Positions 49,724 to 62,902 of a DNA stretch of 64,000 nt are shown here, piece by piece. The DNA is taken from positions 2,925,501 to 2,989,500 of the forward strand of contig NZ_JAJJMP010000001.1 of NCBI RefSeq assembly GCF_020905415.1, read 5' to 3'. Origin of the DNA: Myroides oncorhynchi. Lineage in GTDB: Bacteria > Bacteroidota > Bacteroidia > Flavobacteriales > Flavobacteriaceae. The position numbers and the translations under genes are program-made. Under the pieces are notes generated by a model, which worked only from the letters and a program-made list of their open reading frames with translations, searched no databases and was not told the origin of the DNA. Every line of letters starts with the position of its first letter. Position 1 is the stretch's first letter.

Positions 49724-50155
49724 ATGAAAGACAACACTACTAGTAAAATAAAAACATCTCAAAAAGCATCTGCTATATATCGTGTTCATAGTGTGGGGCT
49801 TACAGAGCAAGAGCAGTTGGAATTTGAGAGAATTCTTGTTAAGTATAACATTAGAAATAAATCAAGATTTATAGCTTTATGTATTTTAAATAAAAAACTT
49901 AAAGCCGTTGTTATAGATAAGGTATCGCTTGACTATCATGCTGAACTAACTACTTTAATCAATCATTTTAAAGCTTTCGGGGTAAGCTACAATATCTTAG
50001 TAAACAAATATGATGTGTCAAAAGAGTCTGAAGAAGTATTCAAAGATATTTTGAAAACTACTCTAGAGCTTTCTAGACTCTGTAAGGAGATCATTAGCCT
50101 TACTTTAGCCTTTGAGAATAGAGTTTTATATAAAGCGGATGATTATGGTGGTTAG
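49724..50155 (+). CDS. mobA: MobA-like mobilization accessory protein
   Basis: A 143-residue protein read from the ATG at 49724. It has the pattern of Bacteroidota relaxosome accessory proteins: a basic N terminus, a ribbon-helix-helix-like part (HSVGLTEQEQLEFERILVKYNIRNKSRFIALCIL) and a helical tail (LTTLINHFKAFGVSYNILVN). It binds the transfer origin with the relaxase. The relaxase gene overlaps its 3' end, confirming a two-gene mob unit. Confidence 0.75.
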   Translation: MKDNTTSKIKTSQKASAIYRVHSVGLTEQEQLEFERILVKYNIRNKSRFIALCILNKKLKAVVIDKVSLDYHAELTTLINHFKAFGVSYNILVNKYDVSKESEEVFKDILKTTLELSRLCKEIISLTLAFENRVLYKADDYGG

Positions 50156-51428
50156 AATAGGCAAGAGTAGAGACATTATGAATACTTTAGTTTACAATCA
50201 GAACAAAGTTGATAACAAGAGTGCTTGTATATTAGGGGTTAATAAAGTAGCGATGCCATTGTATCAACCTGAAAACACGAGCAAGTATTTTTATAAATAT
50301 TTTCAGACCTATTTACTTAATAGTACAAACATAAACAACCCAGTTAGACATATATCTCTTAATCCTAATCCAGTAGATAAAATTGATGACCTTACGCTTT
50401 TAAATATAGCCAAGGCTTATATGAAAAAGGTAGGTTTTAAAAATCAACCCTATATTGTATATAAACACTTTGATCTTCAAAGGATTCATATTCATATAGT
50501 ATCGGTATCAGTTAATGAAAACGGATATCAGATTAATTATTACTTTGACTTTTTAAAAGCTCAAGATGCGTGTAAAGAAATTACCAAAGAGTTTAATTTA
50601 ACGCCATATAATATAAGACATAAAAAAGATAATGATTTAACCATTAAGGTTGTAGACTATAGAGAACCAAACCTTGTCCAGCAAATGTATAATGTTGTAG
50701 AGGTGTTAACTAAATATTATAATTTTGAAAATTTGAAGCAGTATAATGCTGTTTTAAATCTCTTTAAAGTGAAGGTTGCCTTGGGTAAAAATCAAGACCC
50801 AAGTTCTATTGTGTATTATGCTCTTGATTTGGATAACAATATAGCTAGTAATCCAATAAGTCCTAGTAGACTTTGTTTAAAAGTTGACATGGATTTTTTA
50901 AATGTACATTTTAAGAATTCTTCAACTAGCAGTGATCCGATTTTGGACAGTGAAGTAAAAAAACAAGTAGAGTCTTACTTTTTACAAAGCAAAGATTATA
51001 AACACTTTAATAAACTTCTAAAGAATCAAGGAATCAATTTAGTTTCAGATAATAAAAACAAATCTGATTTTTATTTTGTCAGTCATAAATACAAACGAGT
51101 ATTTACTTTCAAAGACTTAGATAAACGCTTATCTGAAAGATTATCAGATGATTTGTATAGTAATTTTTCAAACTCAAAGAAACAAAACAAAAAAGACCCA
51201 CTAAGTAAACTAATAGCTCAAAGGTATAATCAAATTAACGATAACTTTAATAATCTAGTGGTACATTCTAGTTTTGACTTTGTAGACAACTATTTTAATA
51301 TAAACAATAAAGCAGAATTTGTTTGCTTTTTTAATCATCTATTTAATGCTCCTGCAAATGATTTAGACCAAAAGCAGCTTGAGAGCCTTAAAAAAAGAAA
51401 GCGAAAAAAGAAGGGGTATAGAATTTAA
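50145..51428 (+). CDS. mobB: MobB-like relaxase/mobilization nuclease
   Basis: A relaxase of about 427 residues read from the ATG at 50145 (MVVRIGKSRD; ATG at 50139 is an alternative). VYNQNKV near the start, the RHISLNPNPVDK motif and the metal-binding QRIHIHIVSVSVN (three-His type) are those of Bacteroidota Mob relaxases. It nicks the transfer origin and leads the strand into the recipient. It overlaps mobA by 11 bases. The C-terminal 200 residues are Lys/Asn-rich and not recognised. Confidence 0.85.
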   Translation: MVVRIGKSRDIMNTLVYNQNKVDNKSACILGVNKVAMPLYQPENTSKYFYKYFQTYLLNSTNINNPVRHISLNPNPVDKIDDLTLLNIAKAYMKKVGFKNQPYIVYKHFDLQRIHIHIVSVSVNENGYQINYYFDFLKAQDACKEITKEFNLTPYNIRHKKDNDLTIKVVDYREPNLVQQMYNVVEVLTKYYNFENLKQYNAVLNLFKVKVALGKNQDPSSIVYYALDLDNNIASNPISPSRLCLKVDMDFLNVHFKNSSTSSDPILDSEVKKQVESYFLQSKDYKHFNKLLKNQGINLVSDNKNKSDFYFVSHKYKRVFTFKDLDKRLSERLSDDLYSNFSNSKKQNKKDPLSKLIAQRYNQINDNFNNLVVHSSFDFVDNYFNINNKAEFVCFFNHLFNAPANDLDQKQLESLKKRKRKKKGYRI

Positions 51429-52390: not shown

Positions 52391-53497
52391 TTACATAGTT
52401 TCTATATATGTTATAATATCTTTTATAAGTAGTTTTTTTATGGCAGAAATTAAGATTTCCATTGTTTCAAAATCAGGATGACTATTTTTAGCTGGAAGTT
52501 GTATGGATTTTTCCTTTACAACATTCCATCCACCTAATTTGTTTTTATATGAATAAATTGGTAAATCAGTTACTTTATTAATAGCTTGAACAGCAAATAA
52601 ATATTGATTAGGTGTCAAGTCATAGTCACTACCAATCCATTTAATTGCATAAGCATCAGATAAAACTGTAAATTCTTTTGATTGAAAGTACGCTCTATAT
52701 ACATCACTATTTGATGGAATAGAAATAACATTTTTTAGAATAGTCGCTTCCTCTTGAGGCACAAAGTAGTTTAGTCCTTGATTTTTAAAACTAGAAGTTA
52801 GACAAGGTAATGTAAATTTACCCGTTGCTTCCTTAGCTAATTCTTCCGCTTTATAAGGTAGTTTTTTAGTTTTTATCCTTTCAAATAAATTTTTAATTTT
52901 AAAAGTAGACCATTGAATGTTGCCATAATCTTCTAAAATATTTAGTTCTGCTTTGGTTAATTCGTAATTATTTAAATCTATAGCTTGTAAATAGTCTTGT
53001 AGAGTTTGGGTACGCTCTTGTTCTAAGCTAGCAATAAAATGTTCCATAAAATCAAAATCGATAACTCCGTTTTTCATTGGGAGCTTAATACTTACATGGT
53101 TAAAACTGCCAATTCTAAACTGCTTGCTATAATTAAATTGATTTTGAATTTTTTTATTTATTAAACTTGTAATAAAAAGTTTTACATTTTCAGACATCTT
53201 GTCCTTTTCAAATAATACTAATATGTTATCATCAGCAGAATAATTATAATTGCGATAAAATGAATTAGCAAACATATCAATGGTAATTGTTTTAGCGGGA
53301 AAAATTTCTTGATCAAAATTACCAATATATCCAGATACTCCTGTGTTTTCAAATCCTGCAGTGACTAAAGCACGATCACCACTAATTCTATTTTCTGCTG
53401 TTAATCTTTTTCCTCTTTTAATAGAAAATAATTCACTTAATAGAATATCAGGCCCCCACTCAACATTATCTAACTGTTTATTGAGCAGGGTATCTAC
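52391..53497 (-). CDS. DNA specificity (S) part of a BcgI-like restriction-modification system, no start codon of its own
   Basis: The frame encodes two target-recognition-like halves: IKRGKRLTAENRISGD..ALVTAGFENTG in the first and FERIKTKKLPYKAEELAKEATGKFTLPCLTSS in the second, as in type I/IIB specificity subunits. It picks the DNA sequence for the enzyme encoded just upstream. Taking the first in-frame Met (53275, 294 residues) would cut the first recognition domain in half; 74 further codons are open upstream, back to the end of the methylase gene, without ATG, GTG or TTG. It is therefore probably translated as a fusion (about 1048 residues) by a -1 shift at GGGAAAG, or the locus carries a frameshift mutation. 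Confidence 0.75.
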   Translation of the reverse strand, partial: VDTLLNKQLDNVEWGPDILLSELFSIKRGKRLTAENRISGDRALVTAGFENTGVSGYIGNFDQEIFPAKTITIDMFANSFYRNYNYSADDNILVLFEKDKMSENVKLFITSLINKKIQNQFNYSKQFRIGSFNHVSIKLPMKNGVIDFDFMEHFIASLEQERTQTLQDYLQAIDLNNYELTKAELNILEDYGNIQWSTFKIKNLFERIKTKKLPYKAEELAKEATGKFTLPCLTSSFKNQGLNYFVPQEEATILKNVISIPSNSDVYRAYFQSKEFTVLSDAYAIKWIGSDYDLTPNQYLFAVQAINKVTDLPIYSYKNKLGGWNVVKEKSIQLPAKNSHPDFETMEILISAIKKLLIKDIITYIETM

Positions 53498-55536
53498 TTT
53501 CCCAGCGTATAATTTTGGCCTTTAATTATACTAGAAACTTCCCAAGCTAGATAATCACTTATTGTTTTTTTAAATTCGGCAAGACTTGGTTGGGTATCTA
53601 TGGGTGCGGTTTGATTCCAATCAGCGCCGTTGTTTGGATCAATATGACCTTCATAATAATCATTATCTGCAATTAACTCTAATTTGTTCTTGCCAAAACG
53701 TACTAAGTTCACTATCTCCTGATAACGTTGTTTTGCATTATTAGTGTCTTTTAGATTGTTGCTTGATTTTTTGCGATTTGCTCGTGTGTAGCCATCATTA
53801 GAAAAGTCAATAAATTTTACTACTTCATCTTTGTGGTGTTGTTCACCGACTTTAAAAACATAAATATTAGTCTGCACACTTGACTTTCCAATGAATAAAT
53901 CTATGGGCATTTTTATACTTGCAATAAGAGTATGACTTTCTAAAATTTTGATATTATAATCTTTAGCTTTACCTGCGCCAGCAGAATTTTGGATAATAAT
54001 AGCAGCATATCCTTTATTCATCATTCCTAAAGCTTTTTCGACAAAATTCATTCCATTGCCATTAGCAGAATATGGAGGGTTTAGTATAAAAGCATCTGCT
54101 GGAAATAAACTATTAGTTTTTCCAAAACCATATTTACCATCAAAATTAGTTAATGAGTCTATGTTTAAAATGTTAGAGCTACCATCACCCATCATAATCA
54201 TATTCAAAATAGCTAACATATATACATTAGAGAGTAACTCTAATCCCAAGAGTTGCTCAGCTTTAATAGCAATTTCTTTTTGCTGGAGTTCTTGTGGTGA
54301 TTTAATTGTGTTTTTAGCATCAATTAACATTTCATTCATTGCCGCTACCAATAGTCCTGCTGACCCGGTTGCAAAATCCCAAACATACGAGTCTTTGTTT
54401 ACACGAGCTAATCTAACTAATAATGTAGCTACATAAGACGGAGTAAGTACCACATCATTTAATTTGTCTTGTGAAAAGCCTAACCAACCGTACATTTCGT
54501 TGAATAGTTTTCCTGTAAAATCTGTTGTTAAACCAATTTTGTAGTATATTCCTAAATCATCTACAATTTTAGAAAATACACGTCTTAATTGTGTTTCTCC
54601 ATTTTCTACTCTATTGATGTTTTCAGTAGTTAATGTGTTTTCTAACGTGCGAACAATTAAATCTTTTTTCTCTTTAGGTATTTGTTTTTCTTTTAAGAAG
54701 GCTTTTATTTTACGAACAATAATGTCTCCATCGCGGTTTCCTTCCTCATTAGATGATTTTAGATCATCTTTACCAAGTGGTTGTACTTTTCCCGGAATAC
54801 CTAAAGTTGCAATAATAGAAGCTGCAACAAGATAGACACGGTCATTTTCACCCAAACCTTTTTCGTTTTGGTAAATATCATTGTTTAATCGAACTAAGCT
54901 GGTGTCAATTTCTTTTTCTCGTTGTTCCTTAAGCTTGTCTAGTTCTTCTTGTGTTAACTTTAACGATTTTACTTGTTCTATAAAAACATCAAAGTTTTCT
55001 TTTTTCAAGAATGATAGGTCAGTGTATTCTGCAATTTTTTGACCAGCTCCTAAGTTGTCTTTAGAAACATAATAGACTCCTATTTGGTGAATAATTTTGC
55101 CAGAGATGTCTTTATGTCCCGTAACACCAATAGCGATAATATTGGTATAACTGGTATGATGTAGTATAGCATTTGCATAATGTACAGCACCATTTACAGC
55201 AAAACCATTTATGTTTTTTAAATTAGGTTCGTTTTTAACTGTACGATTTTCTACTTGTCTGTTTGCATCTAATTTTACTAATTTATCTTTATACCCTTTA
55301 TACTCAATAAGTATAGGGTAATGATTGTGATATTTATCTTGCAATAGAAGTTTTGTATCTGGTCTATTGGCTCCAGCACCTCCGTTTTTAGTAAAGTATT
55401 CTGATAAGGCTTTATCAATTTCAGAATTGATAGATTCTTGTTGTAATTTATAGGGTAGATTATATTTTTTTAGCCATCCATTTACAAGATCAGCTATATT
55501 TGGTTCGATAGATTGCACTGTTCTTTTCACAGCCAT
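53494..55536 (-). CDS. BcgI-like endonuclease-methyltransferase (RM subunit)
   Basis: A 680-residue protein. The N-terminal domain has Pro59-Asp60 and Glu78-Tyr79-Lys80 (PD-x17-EYK), a PD-(D/E)XK nuclease site. After a helical linker (about 190-330) comes an N6-adenine methyltransferase with motif I VWDFATGSAGLLVA (385-398) and motif IV NPPY (486-489). One chain that both cuts and methylates, paired with a separate specificity part, is the type IIB/BcgI plan. It protects the host, or the mobile element, from foreign DNA. Its stop codon sits at the suspected frameshift site into the specificity part. Confidence 0.85.
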   Translation of the reverse strand: MAVKRTVQSIEPNIADLVNGWLKKYNLPYKLQQESINSEIDKALSEYFTKNGGAGANRPDTKLLLQDKYHNHYPILIEYKGYKDKLVKLDANRQVENRTVKNEPNLKNINGFAVNGAVHYANAILHHTSYTNIIAIGVTGHKDISGKIIHQIGVYYVSKDNLGAGQKIAEYTDLSFLKKENFDVFIEQVKSLKLTQEELDKLKEQREKEIDTSLVRLNNDIYQNEKGLGENDRVYLVAASIIATLGIPGKVQPLGKDDLKSSNEEGNRDGDIIVRKIKAFLKEKQIPKEKKDLIVRTLENTLTTENINRVENGETQLRRVFSKIVDDLGIYYKIGLTTDFTGKLFNEMYGWLGFSQDKLNDVVLTPSYVATLLVRLARVNKDSYVWDFATGSAGLLVAAMNEMLIDAKNTIKSPQELQQKEIAIKAEQLLGLELLSNVYMLAILNMIMMGDGSSNILNIDSLTNFDGKYGFGKTNSLFPADAFILNPPYSANGNGMNFVEKALGMMNKGYAAIIIQNSAGAGKAKDYNIKILESHTLIASIKMPIDLFIGKSSVQTNIYVFKVGEQHHKDEVVKFIDFSNDGYTRANRKKSSNNLKDTNNAKQRYQEIVNLVRFGKNKLELIADNDYYEGHIDPNNGADWNQTAPIDTQPSLAEFKKTISDYLAWEVSSIIKGQNYTLGK
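53497..53503 (-). promoter_or_regulatory. Candidate -1 ribosomal frameshift heptamer (GGGAAAG)
   Basis: In the methylase frame the codons are CTG GGA AAG TAG, so G-GGA-AAG has the X-XXY-YYZ form and lies directly before the stop. A -1 slip reads GGG AAA GTA GAT and enters the specificity frame. A modest stem (CTCAA / TTGAG) starts about 11 bases downstream. Confidence 0.5.
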
Positions 55537-56076: not shown

Positions 56077-56361
56077 TTAAAAGAGTTCTAATGCTAAATC
56101 AGTATCTATGATCTTTCTACCGTACTGCAAAATAGCACGATTGATTTTACTGTCTTTCTTTATTTTGTTAGCAGTAGAAATACTGTAACTAAATAATTTG
56201 GCTATGCCAGCAATACCATATATGTAACGTTTGGTAGGTGGTTCATTGGATTGCTTTTTTGAATGAATAGATTCATTCATCGCTATTTCCTTTAGTAAGT
56301 CTAATAGCTCTTGTCCTTTCATTTGCCAAACAAGCTTTTCTTTTAACTTGTTTAAATACAT
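56077..56361 (-). CDS. DUF3853-family protein (element-associated, HTH-like)
   Basis: A 94-residue protein with LVWQMKGQELLDLL near the start and YIYGIAGIAKLFSYSISTANKIKKDSKINRAILQYGR, the DUF3853 pattern: a small helix-turn-helix-like fold common in Bacteroidota integrative elements and thought to act like an excisionase or regulator. It is the only such gene between the restriction and PARIS-like loci and transcribed away from the latter. Confidence 0.7.
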   Translation of the reverse strand: MYLNKLKEKLVWQMKGQELLDLLKEIAMNESIHSKKQSNEPPTKRYIYGIAGIAKLFSYSISTANKIKKDSKINRAILQYGRKIIDTDLALELF

Positions 56362-56619: not shown

Positions 56620-58500
56620 ATGAATTATTTATTAGATCAACTAATTAAAGATTCTGAATTACATAAAGATATTTTTCTAAAATTAGAATTTACAGAAAAA
56701 GATTTATCAGTGTTTGATAGAATAAAGAAAAGTGCTTTTGCTATTAAAGAACAAGTTTTAAGACCTGATATAAATGACTCATATATTGAGTTATATAGTA
56801 AAGAAATAGAGACTTTAATTAGTTTTTTACCTTTTAGAGGGGGAGAAGATTCTAGCTTTGTTGATTATCAAGATCCCCATTGGAAACAATCAAATAAAGA
56901 ATATTTTAATCATAGTATTAAACAACAATTAGATTCTATTTTACTAGAGTTAGAATTTCAGGTAGATTTATTTAATAAAATCGGTCAACTTGAGTCTAAT
57001 TTGGTTATTGTAGGAGCAAATGGTAGTGGAAAAACTTCATTAGCTGAAAAATTAAAAATAAATTTAAATTATAACGGAACTGTTGTTTCTGCTCAACGAA
57101 TATTAAGAATTCCAGAATTTCAGAGTGTTAGTAATAAACAAATAACTTTGGATAATCTGATTTCAAATCAAAGAGCAGATAAAAGATATAAAAATGAACA
57201 CAATTTTAGCAATATCTTAAACGAATTTGAAATTGTAATACAACACTTGCTAGCGGAAAATATCTCTCTTAGTACTGCTTTTAGATCACATTATACAGAG
57301 GAATATAACAAAGATAAAAACCTTCTCATCGAGCCAGTAACTACTAAATTAGATGAAACTATTGAAATATGGAATTCATTAATTAGTCATCGCATATTAA
57401 AATGCGAAGATGGTATGAATTTCAAAACTTTTGTAGTAGGAAATGAAAACTCTTATTTAAGTATTCAGATGAGTGAGGGTGAAAAGAATCTTCTTTATCT
57501 CATTATACAAGTCTTATTAGCTCCGAAAAATGGTTTTATTGTAATAGATGAACCTGAAATGTATTTACATAAAACAATTTTAAAAAAATTATGGGATAAA
57601 TTAGAAATAAGACGTGAAGATTGTTTATTTATATATTTAACTCATGATCTAGATTTTGCTACAAGTAGAAAAATTGCTAAGAAGATTTGGTTAAAATCGT
57701 ACAATCATCCTAATGCATGGGAGTTGGAAGTTATTAATTCAGAAGAAATTCCAGAAGCATTATTATTAGAAATACTAGGTAGTTCAGACAATATTCTTTT
57801 TTGTGAAGGGAAAAAGAATTCTATTGACGAAAAACTCTACTCAATGCTTTTTTCTAATTATACAATTATACCTGTTGGTTCTTGTTTCGATGTTATGAAT
57901 CATACAAAAGCGTTTAATAAATTACAAAATGTTACTACAAAGGCAATTGGAATAATTGATTCAGATCATCACTCAAGAGAAAGGCTTGATAAGCTAAAAG
58001 AAAATAGTATTTATAGTTTTTCCGTCTCAGAAATTGAGAATTTATTTTTGGATGAAGAGTTTTTAAGATGTATTTCAAATTTTGTTGGTATAGAGGAGAG
58101 CGCTGTAGTTTCGATAAAAGAAAGTATTCTAGATGATTTGAAAAGTAATATAGATTTACAAGTTTCAAATTATGTATCTACTAAAATCAATAATATTTTT
58201 AACGACTGCGACCTTAGTAAAGGTAATTCGTTAGATAAAATTAATGAAAATTACGAAAGTTTTAAAAACACCATTAATATAGAGGCTTTTTATGAAGAAA
58301 GAAAAAGGGATTTAGAAGAAATTTGTAATAATAATGATTATGAGAAAGCTATTTTAATCTATAATAATAAAGGACTTAAGAAGCACGTTGAGAAACATTT
58401 TAAAATAACTGAGTTTACATTAAGATGCTTCCTGTTTTTACAAAAGGAGCCTGAAAAAATAGATCTGTTTAGGAAATATTTCCCCATAGAGCTATTCTAA
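56620..58500 (+). CDS. Fused AAA ATPase-DUF4435 protein, PARIS (AriA-AriB)-like defence
   Basis: A 626-residue protein. Residues 1-370 are an ABC/SMC-type ATPase: Walker A GANGSGKTS (132-140), signature SEGEKN (285-290), Walker B FIVIDEPEMYLH (306-317) and switch His342 (YLTHD). Residues about 388-626 are a TOPRIM-like DUF4435 domain with ILFCEGKKNSID (Glu396) and GIIDSDHH (Asp447, Asp449). AAA plus DUF4435 is the make-up of PARIS, where AriA senses phage anti-defence proteins and AriB is the toxic effector; here both are in one chain. OLD-family nucleases are the main alternative. It has its own promoter and no partner gene. Confidence 0.75.
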   Translation: MNYLLDQLIKDSELHKDIFLKLEFTEKDLSVFDRIKKSAFAIKEQVLRPDINDSYIELYSKEIETLISFLPFRGGEDSSFVDYQDPHWKQSNKEYFNHSIKQQLDSILLELEFQVDLFNKIGQLESNLVIVGANGSGKTSLAEKLKINLNYNGTVVSAQRILRIPEFQSVSNKQITLDNLISNQRADKRYKNEHNFSNILNEFEIVIQHLLAENISLSTAFRSHYTEEYNKDKNLLIEPVTTKLDETIEIWNSLISHRILKCEDGMNFKTFVVGNENSYLSIQMSEGEKNLLYLIIQVLLAPKNGFIVIDEPEMYLHKTILKKLWDKLEIRREDCLFIYLTHDLDFATSRKIAKKIWLKSYNHPNAWELEVINSEEIPEALLLEILGSSDNILFCEGKKNSIDEKLYSMLFSNYTIIPVGSCFDVMNHTKAFNKLQNVTTKAIGIIDSDHHSRERLDKLKENSIYSFSVSEIENLFLDEEFLRCISNFVGIEESAVVSIKESILDDLKSNIDLQVSNYVSTKINNIFNDCDLSKGNSLDKINENYESFKNTINIEAFYEERKRDLEEICNNNDYEKAILIYNNKGLKKHVEKHFKITEFTLRCFLFLQKEPEKIDLFRKYFPIELF

Positions 58501-60883: not shown

Positions 60884-62902
60884 ATGAAACTTGTGATAAC
60901 AGAAACAGCAAGCGTGGCTAGGATTCTAGCCACGTTTTTTAATACTCATCAAAAAGAGTTTGGCTATTATAAATCAGACAAATACTTTGTAACATGGATG
61001 GATGATTGTAAGATTAAGTTGGAGCTTTTAGAGTCTTTAAAGAATCAAAATAAAGCAAACAGCCATGTACCCCTTGATTATAAACTCACTCTGGTAAATA
61101 AGAAAGAGCATAAAAGTAGTAATCCTATTGCTTTAAAAAAGCTTGATATAATAAGGCAATTAACTCAAAAGAGTAAAGAAGTTATAATTGCTACAATGCC
61201 TAGTGCTACAGCAGAGGCTAGCTTTAGATACCTTTTTGAATATTTACAGATAGACCTACCTTTTAAAAGACTTTGGCTTGAATCTTTATGTAATCAGTCT
61301 ATAACAAAGGCTATGTTAAATATAGACAGAAATAAAAATGATGACACTGTTTTTTATGCTCAAAAAAACAAGGAATTAATTTATAAACAATTAAATCAAT
61401 ATTATAGTAAAGTAGCCTTGAAATCTGAAGATAAGCTTTGTTTTGTTAATGCTGTTTTATTATCACTTATATGTCAAAACTACCTTGATACAAACCAAAG
61501 TAATCCAAAGACAACCTATAGGATAATGGTTAATTTAAGAAGTACTTCTAAAGACTATTATTGTTATTTTCCAAAGTTGTATCATAAAGAAAATTCAGCC
61601 CTAAAAGACTTGAAACTAATACAGAAAAACTCTAGGGTAAAAACTAAAAGTAAAAACATAGAATTTGTAAAAGAGCCAGCTGTTTTATTGTTTGATTTTT
61701 TAACTCTTACAATCAAAGCTCGTAGTGTTTATGGGTTTAGTTCCCTTAAAACTCTTAATATATTAATAAGGCTTTACAGGCAAAGATTTATTAGTTATCC
61801 TTTAACCTTAAATAAGTATTTACCCCAAAGCAGTAAAGATGGTATTTCTGGGGTTTTAAATGTTTTAAGAGATTATCCAAAGTTTAAAGAAACTCTACTT
61901 ACCTTAAAACTTGCCAAGCTTCATTACCGAGGTATTATTAAGGATGAGAATTTTCATACCCATGGTATATTAACCACTTTAAATATTCCACATAGTTTAA
62001 CTGTGGATGAAAAAGCGATATATGAATTAATAGCTCAAAGATGCATTGATACCTTTAGATTACAGCCTCAAATTAGAAAGGCAGTTTTAATTCTTGATAT
62101 AGAAAACCAGCCTTATGATTTATTGTTAGAGGCCTTTGAAAATAATCTCTCTAATAATAACTCTGTAAATACTGTAGATAGTATTGATGGGTTACTTCAA
62201 GTAGATTCTTTTCAAGTAGAATCAGCGAAGATAGTTAAGCAAACTAACCAGAGTGAGTCGCTTTTTACCTTTTCCAGTTTAATTCAAAAGATTCAAGATG
62301 ATTTTATAGCAAGCTTAAAACAAAATGGACTGTCCAAAGAAAGTTTCTACTTTTTTAAAGATGTGTTTGTAAAACTTGTTTTAGGGGTTGACACTTTACT
62401 GGAAAAAGGCTATGTTATATCTACCCCTAAGGGGCTTGTGACCACTGAAATGGGCTTAGACTATTACAAAAGACTAACAAGGTTTAACTTATCAAGTTCA
62501 AGTTATAAGGATCTTATAGATTTTGAGTTATTTTTTTTTAATTTAAAACAAGGTATTACTATAAGGCAAGAGTTTTATAGGCAAAGTCAAGATAAACTAA
62601 GATTTATACATCATAAGATAACTTATTTTACTGATCTAGATAACATATCTGATTTTGTTTGTTTGGCATGTAAAGACAAATTAGAACTTAGTTTTAAAAG
62701 ACTTGTTTGTCTAAACAAATCATGCCCTTGGAGAGTTGAAAGATTTGTATCTGGGGTTTATTTATCAGAATTTGACCTTGAGTTTCTACTTAAGTCAAAA
62801 CGATCAAAGTCTTGGTTTAGTTTTAAAGATCGCAAAGGTTATCCCTTTAAAGCATATTTGTTTTTTAATGAAAAACTACAGCTTTGTTACGAGTTTGTTT
62901 AA
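60884..62902 (+). CDS. Type IA topoisomerase (TopB)-like protein with lost catalytic residues
   Basis: A 672-residue relative of topoisomerase III. Recognisable parts are KLVITETASVARILATFF (usually EKPSVA; Glu7 kept), IIATMPSATAEASFRYLFEYL (101-121; usually D-x-D-x-E, both Asp gone), PFKRLWLESL, YGFSSLKTLNILIRLYRQRFISYPLTLNKYL (Tyr305 kept, the usual YPRT Arg replaced by Leu307) and a C-terminal Cys4 zinc ribbon (FVCLACKD, LVCLNKSCPW). Without the magnesium-binding acids and the arginine, strand cleavage is unlikely; it may only bind DNA. It probably shares a transcript with the DUF3945 gene. Confidence 0.75.
   Translation: MKLVITETASVARILATFFNTHQKEFGYYKSDKYFVTWMDDCKIKLELLESLKNQNKANSHVPLDYKLTLVNKKEHKSSNPIALKKLDIIRQLTQKSKEVIIATMPSATAEASFRYLFEYLQIDLPFKRLWLESLCNQSITKAMLNIDRNKNDDTVFYAQKNKELIYKQLNQYYSKVALKSEDKLCFVNAVLLSLICQNYLDTNQSNPKTTYRIMVNLRSTSKDYYCYFPKLYHKENSALKDLKLIQKNSRVKTKSKNIEFVKEPAVLLFDFLTLTIKARSVYGFSSLKTLNILIRLYRQRFISYPLTLNKYLPQSSKDGISGVLNVLRDYPKFKETLLTLKLAKLHYRGIIKDENFHTHGILTTLNIPHSLTVDEKAIYELIAQRCIDTFRLQPQIRKAVLILDIENQPYDLLLEAFENNLSNNNSVNTVDSIDGLLQVDSFQVESAKIVKQTNQSESLFTFSSLIQKIQDDFIASLKQNGLSKESFYFFKDVFVKLVLGVDTLLEKGYVISTPKGLVTTEMGLDYYKRLTRFNLSSSSYKDLIDFELFFFNLKQGITIRQEFYRQSQDKLRFIHHKITYFTDLDNISDFVCLACKDKLELSFKRLVCLNKSCPWRVERFVSGVYLSEFDLEFLLKSKRSKSWFSFKDRKGYPFKAYLFFNEKLQLCYEFV

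Follow-up and report, generated by a model that had tools for sequence, protein, structure and literature searches.

Here, we analyzed a BcgI-like restriction-modification (R-M) system encoded on the minus strand of a 64,000-nt stretch of the Myroides oncorhynchi genome (contig NZ_JAJJMP010000001.1, positions 2,925,501 to 2,989,500; the whole stretch is called the window below, and all coordinates refer to it). Judged from sequence comparisons, it is highly probable that the specificity (S) part of this enzyme is made by programmed -1 ribosomal frameshifting at the end of the gene for the combined restriction and modification subunit (RM), which would yield two products, RM alone and an RM-S fusion. 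Programmed frameshifting is very likely family-wide. The genome (4.16 Mb, two contigs) contains one RM gene of this BcgI-like family. The features around the junction are:

53494..55536, minus strand: RM gene, presumably a PD-(D/E)XK-type nuclease plus an N6-adenine methyltransferase; 680 amino acids (aa), the zero-frame product.
53503-53497, minus strand: slippery heptamer GGGAAAG, phased G GGA AAG (read from the sequence and from family comparison).
53496-53494, minus strand: zero-frame stop codon TAG, immediately 3' of the heptamer (sequence).
53454..53490, minus strand: presumed stimulatory hairpin of 12 bp with a 13-nt loop, arms 53490-53479 and 53465-53454 (folding, conservation, covariation).
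52391..53497, minus strand: -1-frame S portion of the fusion, 368 codons from the slip onwards and a stop (PADLOC Specificity_II, structural model, fold matches).
52391..53275, minus strand: S from its first ATG, 294 aa, beginning within the first target recognition domain (TRD1); this is protein P0121.

Across the junction, the minus strand reads ...AAT TAT ACG CTG GGA AAG TAG ATA CCC TGC.... A first-pass annotation of this DNA had described a methylase frame ending in CTG GGA AAG TAG and an S frame entered by a -1 slip, and both are plainly seen. Slipping back one base on G-GGA-AAG gives ...LGK-VDTLLNKQLDNVEWGPD..., open to 52391, and the predicted product has 1048 residues, the length that had been claimed. 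The S frame ends with a stop codon at 52393-52391. Its first ATG, at 53275, lies inside the first recognition domain, and ATG, GTG and TTG are all absent ahead of it, again as had been stated; a separate S gene with its own start is not found in the window. Only the S-frame TAA upstream of the site had been misplaced: it lies at 53524-53522, about 20 nt before the heptamer and not about 50. Annotated S starts are late: in the E. coli records L142 and L145 (L numbers denote the compared loci) they lie about 69-75 nt past the RM stop, and in the window (P0121) inside TRD1. At least these database S proteins are therefore truncated.

Alignment of homologues had been proposed as a check on the heptamer and the frame arrangement, and its outcome was strongly positive. 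A first set of 82 loci comprised the best 80 of 225 relatives from a genome scan, the one close relative obtained from a search of 150 related genomes, and the window; the tblastn match had to reach the C-terminal part of RM with at least 500 bits. An in-phase heptamer is found at the RM end in 80 of these 82 loci (GGGAAAG in 50, GGGAAAA in 29, AAAAAAA in one), and the stop codon follows directly in 76, one codon on in three, and four codons on in one. Both exceptions (L025 and L035) are in-frame fusions with a single TRD. A wider set, for which only the C-terminal reach was demanded, also draws on phages and plasmids, on viral contigs, on E. coli, and on 397 genomes from the class to which L055, recorded as a Campylobacteraceae bacterium, belongs. 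Its 176 loci were reduced to 164 distinct junctions by removing nine duplicates, two that were too short, and one non-homologue. A -1 site is present at 126 of these junctions and a +1 site at four; 16 are in-frame fusions, 10 have an S start codon without a shift site, and eight are other or decayed. Seven heptamers occur at the -1 sites (GGGAAAG 75, GGGAAAA 38, CCCAAAG 6, AAAAAAG 3, AAATTTT 2, AAAAAAA 1, CCCTTTT 1), the six CCCAAAG loci being L132, L134, L135, and L171-L173. Heptamer and zero-frame stop are adjacent, with no intervening codon, in 101 of the 126. The shift-site sequence thus varies among relatives while the junction arrangement persists. Among the eight remaining junctions, the heptamer is kept in L011 and L039, where S is disrupted, and in L079, at a contig end; S is broken early in L124 and missing in L155 and L160; in L161 the heptamer is gone and S is truncated, and L186 combines a start codon with a chance A-rich heptamer.

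The distribution depends on the distance from the window's RM. At 60% identity or more (n=116), there are 101 -1 sites, two +1 sites, nine in-frame fusions, no start-codon junctions, and four others; at 41-59%, the respective numbers are 17, 1, 4, 0, and 3, and at 40% or less 8, 1, 3, 10, and 1. All start-codon junctions thus fall at or below 40%, yet eight -1 sites and one +1 site are found there as well, so that shift sites mark out one part of the BcgI family at large. Named -1 members bear the labels Bacteroidota, Pseudomonadota, Bacillota, Campylobacterota, Deferribacterota, Lentisphaerota, Cyanobacteriota or Melainabacteria, and Altimarinota, about eight phyla, although single assignments may be wrong because many records are metagenome bins. 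In E. coli, a 281-bp junction query matched 29 of 5426 genomes, 20 of which have a GGGAAAG TAA junction at least 99% identical. The other nine match on the RM side only, and the three inspected (L143, L144, L145) carry AAAAAAG; E. coli has two cassettes behind related RM genes. The same is seen among the E. coli-type loci L100, L101, L143, L144, and L145, whose close RM genes are followed by differing shift cassettes (GGGAAAG or AAAAAAG). In L083, from the window's own genus, RM shares only 37% identity with the RM of the window, but the junction cassettes closely resemble each other, as do the starts of S, which suggests that cassette and S move as a module.

The nucleotides of the slip site appear to be under selection of their own. 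Glycine at the slip is encoded by GGA in all 96 GGGAAAR rows, whereas GGA makes up 28% of the glycine codons in the same genes, and the ten different codons that precede the GGGAAAR slip site all end in G. Since these 96 rows were chosen for the heptamer, the 80 of 82 given above is the fairer figure for its frequency. None of 398 other open reading frames (ORFs) of at least 150 codons, taken mechanically from all six frames of the fetched loci, ends with GGGAAAR plus stop; any XXXYYYZ heptamer stands right before the stop in 13, and an in-phase one falls among the last six codons in 37. A degenerate pattern of the whole cassette matched in two of 395 class genomes, the window's and one other, both times at the RM gene; the reversed pattern matched nowhere, and the cassette was found in no unrelated gene of these 395 genomes. 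Just past the slip, the S frame is conserved at a leucine (95/95) and a tryptophan (95/95, the tryptophan being the selection criterion for these 95 rows). S stays open for at least 300 codons in 108 of the 130 shift-site loci by a rough classification. TGA seldom serves as the zero-frame stop (5 of 126 -1 junctions). It may be avoided to prevent free S, because at most sites TGA would create a GTG or ATG in the S frame.

The first-pass annotation had suggested programmed -1 frameshifting on the basis of the heptamer and its phase. Heptamer, phase and conservation support this suggestion, to which we can add a presumed stimulatory structure that it had lacked. Six nt downstream of the window's heptamer, a 12-bp hairpin is predicted (-15.9 kcal/mol, z -3.5). 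Its conservation was examined in 95 of 104 junction rows that share one layout; the nine excluded rows, in which the S-frame tryptophan codon is missing at the fixed place, have a disrupted S (L011, L039) or a different layout (L013, L061, L100, L138, L140, L141, L144). Across 95 loci and 11 positions, 1004 of 1045 cells are paired, and all 11 pairs form in 80 loci. Sliding the partner by 1-3 columns lowers the paired cells to 371-544. When codons were permuted within columns with the protein kept, at most 66 of the 95 loci were fully paired in 1000 trials; with random synonymous codons the maximum was six in 300 trials. The third base of a leucine codon covaries with the first base of the facing Glu/Lys codon (TA 36, TG 29, CG 24, CA 0, unpaired 6), C facing only G. 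Facing arms are also visible by eye in rows of other layout, for example L144. No known RNA family scored above its gathering score, and the two matches obtained were at chance level. The junction thus has an X XXY YYZ heptamer in the right phase and a conserved 3' structure at short spacing. The same elements, an X XXY YYZ heptamer, a nearby stop and a hairpin 6 nt downstream, are found in dnaX and lambda G-GT. Neither these two nor prfB is a restriction enzyme, however, whereas the shift in the window would add a DNA-recognition subunit.

Some relatives use a different device at the same place. Three +1 loci (L128, L136, L150) have AAGGAYTTACTTTAGC and a fourth (L166) has AAGGACTCACTTTGAC, with S in the +1 frame. 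In all four, CTTTAGC or CTTTGAC behind AAGGA (AAGGA-N4-CTT-TAG/TGA-C) replaces the -1 cassette. This resembles the prfB site, which passages of a published account describe as a Shine-Dalgarno-like element followed three nt on by CTTT, a stop codon and C (PMC12421855). Flavobacterium johnsoniae is reported there to be a poor shifter at this Shine-Dalgarno-dependent site. The 16 in-frame fusions form three groups, with the number of TRDs judged from length. Four (L025, L035, L105, L113) have one TRD, and their fused part is free of G and GA tracts, although an A9 run lies near the junction of L105. Six end after the first TRD, five of them at a G/GA tract (L123, L165, L177, L180, L183) but not L178. 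The last six span both TRDs, five with a G9 or GA tract between them (L120, L125, L127, L149, L164) but not L122. In the ten tract-bearing loci of the latter two groups the tract lies between the TRDs, so that phase variation could switch between one and two TRDs. The 120 best protein matches include five of 866-877 aa and none longer, and the four of these five that were inspected all consist of RM and about one TRD. In a tree of 117 rows calculated in quick mode, in which many forks are open and L083 sits on a long branch, the in-frame state (nine rows) requires five changes, at least three of them forced by starred branches; such fusions arose repeatedly. Homologues with a single uninterrupted frame had been named in advance as evidence for a mutation or error. 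They do exist (16 of 164), but four have just one TRD and a tract separates the TRDs in 10 of the remaining 12, which fits the idea of a controlled subunit ratio. A preference for one catalytic domain per TRD would predict in-frame fusions of these kinds.

Other routes to an S protein have to be weighed. If S were a separate subunit, ribosomes would have to terminate at the RM stop and reinitiate further on or at a non-canonical start codon, which we consider improbable. Suitable starts do occur: 10 of the 164 junctions (L107, L108, L109, and others, all distant BcgI-type systems of 25-40% identity) lack a shift site and carry a start codon close to the RM stop, there is an overlapping ATGA in L110 and an overlapping GTG in four CCCAAAG loci, and an ATG is found at +20 in 14 of 126 loci. 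But 100 of the 126 S frames are without an ATG before +60 and 48 without ATG, GTG or TTG, the first-start positions are scattered (the commonest, +20, in 15 of 126), and the wobble-fixed heptamers, the hairpin, and the conserved residues ahead of most starts are left unexplained by reinitiation. For L134, L135, L171, and L173, the overlapping GTG makes reinitiation possible. Fusion through transcriptional instead of ribosomal slippage is less probable still. A few members have A-rich sites (AAAAAAA in one, AAAAAAG in three), and the in-frame L105 could be read in the same way from its A run. The dominant site, however, offers only three G and three or four A, and runs of the length found in GGGAAAR are too short for polymerase slippage; the strict codon phase and the codon-plus-stop design of the +1 members suit the ribosome.

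A single-base mutation, a phase-variable junction, or an assembly error is the least credible of these explanations, with hardly any probability left to it. G or GA tracts lie inside S in 23 of 130 shift-site loci, and phase variation of the H. pylori S through a G tract is described in a published study (PMC3936762). Yet GGGAAAR does not form a repeat tract, most of the tracts lie around 200 codons downstream, between the TRDs, and the same arrangement recurs under about eight phylum labels and in 20 E. coli genomes with at least 99% identity. Because heptamer and frame arrangement are conserved in homologues (80 of 82 loci; 126 of 164 junctions), mutation or assembly error is very unlikely and was rejected.

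Several observations nevertheless speak against programmed frameshifting. Between the upstream stop and +60, an ATG is present in 26 of 126 S frames and an ATG, GTG or TTG in 78, so that the lack of a start codon is not universal. Of the 22 shift-site loci in which S is not open for 300 codons, four run off the end and 10 meet a G or GA tract, but eight of the 130 have an S cut short with neither contig end nor tract explaining it. Six in-frame loci encode both TRDs in one chain, and since L122 does so without a tract, the rule of one catalytic domain per TRD does not hold without exception. The hairpin statistics treat rows as independent and ignore their kinship. Shine-Dalgarno-like sites upstream of the shift site occur in 51% of the loci outside Bacteroidota and in 39% inside, against 33% in the null in both cases; with such mild enrichment outside and hardly any inside, the case for an upstream Shine-Dalgarno sequence as a general stimulator is weak. 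Finally, sequence comparison documents the slip site, its phase, the hairpin, the coding S frame, and their conservation, while we infer from these the occurrence of the frameshift and its efficiency, the assembly of the subunits, and ratio control as the selected function.

The two proteins themselves fit a BcgI-like enzyme. RM matches N6_Mtase in a domain search and PADLOC REase_MTase_IIG (E=1.3e-241). No relative of RM was found in the PDB by sequence at E 0.001 in single-sequence or profile searches, so its structural kinship had to be derived from fold comparison: its predicted model, of a mean predicted local distance difference test score (pLDDT) of only 68, matches the RM fold of BsaXI (8w2p_A, E=8.8e-9) and Type I HsdM folds. 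S matches the PADLOC Type II specificity model (Specificity_II), and its AlphaFold model (pLDDT 87) shows two TRDs with a long helix behind each and is matched by the folds of HsdS subunits and of the S of BsaXI. Methylase_S is found in 53 of 68 aligned sequences but not in the window's own S, for which no Pfam or NCBIfam domain was detected at E 0.001. The corresponding features are listed below; the motif names, PD-(D/E)XK-type nuclease and methyltransferase motifs, are those we take to apply.

55297..55362, minus strand: probable nuclease motif P59-D60...E78-Y79-K80 (D60, E78, and K80 invariant in a 30-sequence alignment).
54070..54378, minus strand: methyltransferase motifs DFATGSAG (residues 387-394) and NPPY (486-489) (invariant columns, N6_Mtase match).
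S layout: TRD1, helix 149-173, TRD2, helix 344-368 (369-residue stretch numbered from 53500).

RM thus has a nuclease and an N6-adenine methylase domain, the nuclease being recognized by a VRR_NUC match to residues 30-88 below its cut-off, the invariant D/E/K residues, and the fold match. S is predicted to have two TRDs and two helical spacers. By its composition, the system is a BcgI-like Type IIB/IIG enzyme, a class whose members cleave on both sides of a bipartite site.

We propose the following mechanism. Most ribosomes on the RM gene would stop at TAG and release RM (680 aa). Some would slip back one base on G-GGA-AAG, aided by the hairpin 6 nt downstream, and continue into the S frame to give RM-S (1048 aa). 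Joined in one enzyme, RM and RM-S would supply two catalytic domains to serve the two TRDs of a single S, which would correspond to the (RM)2S of BcgI and BsaXI. The purpose is probably to hold one catalytic domain per TRD, and the slip rate may be tuned for the subunit ratio. On balance, we lean towards a broader view: the recognition subunit would never be free, the slip rate would set the amount of RM-S per RM and hence the number of active (RM)(RM-S) enzymes, and one catalytic domain per TRD would be kept by exchangeable junction devices (varied -1 heptamers, a prfB-like +1 site, a one-TRD in-frame fusion, or a phase-variable repeat between the TRDs).

The comparison with known enzymes relies on passages of the cited papers. 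BcgI and BsaXI are (RM)2S complexes (PMC3874165, PMC11997821); BcgI is described as two proteins, RM and S (PMC3874165), and BsaXI as two reading frames (PMC11997821). As in these systems, the RM gene precedes S, S has two TRDs, and the predicted folds resemble the RM of BsaXI and the S of BsaXI and Type I HsdS, but the window's S has no start near its beginning and is predicted to be reached by a frame shift. The single-chain Type IIB enzymes AloI, CjeI and TstI combine RM, TRD1 and TRD2 in one chain, like the predicted fusion and like L120, L122, L125, L127, L149, and L164. They are described as one chain only, whereas free RM is also predicted here. Their 1RM:2TRD composition is called a mystery for AloI and CjeI in a review (PMC3874165).

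The BcgI-like systems of Helicobacter pylori appear to belong here, too. In a protein search, many H. pylori N-6 DNA methylases align with RM of L135 at 84-91% identity, and the four H. pylori RM proteins inspected end in ...NQTPPK, like L135 before CCCAAAG; by this similarity, these methylases are members of the RM family. The placement of these systems is drawn from RM protein similarity and from the junctions of L134 and L135. According to one study, inactivity was reported for HP1471/HP1472 and JHP1364/JHP1365 and most likely results from a stop behind RM together with the lack of a start codon for S; JHP1364/JHP1365 (Hpy99XXII) became active once a ribosome site and start codon were added and the G tract was corrected, but HP1471/1472 did not (PMC3936762). 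The CCCAAAG sites of L134 and L135 suggest that frameshifting was missed in the H. pylori systems. Both an HP1471 deletion mutant and an 'ON' mutant are described as poor mouse colonisers in passages of another study (PMC4209511), which suggests that S is made in the native setting.

The nearest published precedent we found, as far as the available passages tell, is the NsoJS138I C-REase fusion, for which ribosomal -1 slippage was proposed to give two R-M products; no such product was seen in E. coli (PMC3850674). It is a single system of opposite design, an in-frame fusion from which the slip would release the C protein. An artificial M-S fusion of EcoKI works, with some free M thought to be responsible (PMC3510504), but as described it is man-made, Type I, and lacks a frameshift signal. 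Among the matches listed from the open-access literature, a scope that most subscription papers and supplements fall outside, RM-S frameshifting is unreported, and no paper in the open-access collection searched pairs frameshifting with BcgI, or with restriction-modification and type IIB. The main-text passages of the GeneTack survey, its supplements lying outside this scope, name no R-M frameshift family (PMC3711429), and those of PMC6456624 mention frameshifting only with rare arginine codons.

The RM genes are surrounded by genes for a relaxase (50112-51428, plus strand), a DUF3853 protein (56077-56361, minus strand), and a topoisomerase (60884-62902, plus strand), which is probably a mobile element. 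An AAA ATPase with DUF4435 (56620-58500, plus strand) is a possible second defence gene beside the R-M system.

If programmed frameshifting holds, it would be a third way of wiring R-M subunits, beside separate genes and fixed fusions, and the family would add a large, new group to the recoded genes of cells. The late S start calls in this family would be explained, and an S cloned from its annotated start would be a truncated protein. The H. pylori systems dismissed as inactive may be active, and the pairing of RM with RM-S offers a possible answer to the 1RM:2TRD mystery of the single-chain enzymes.

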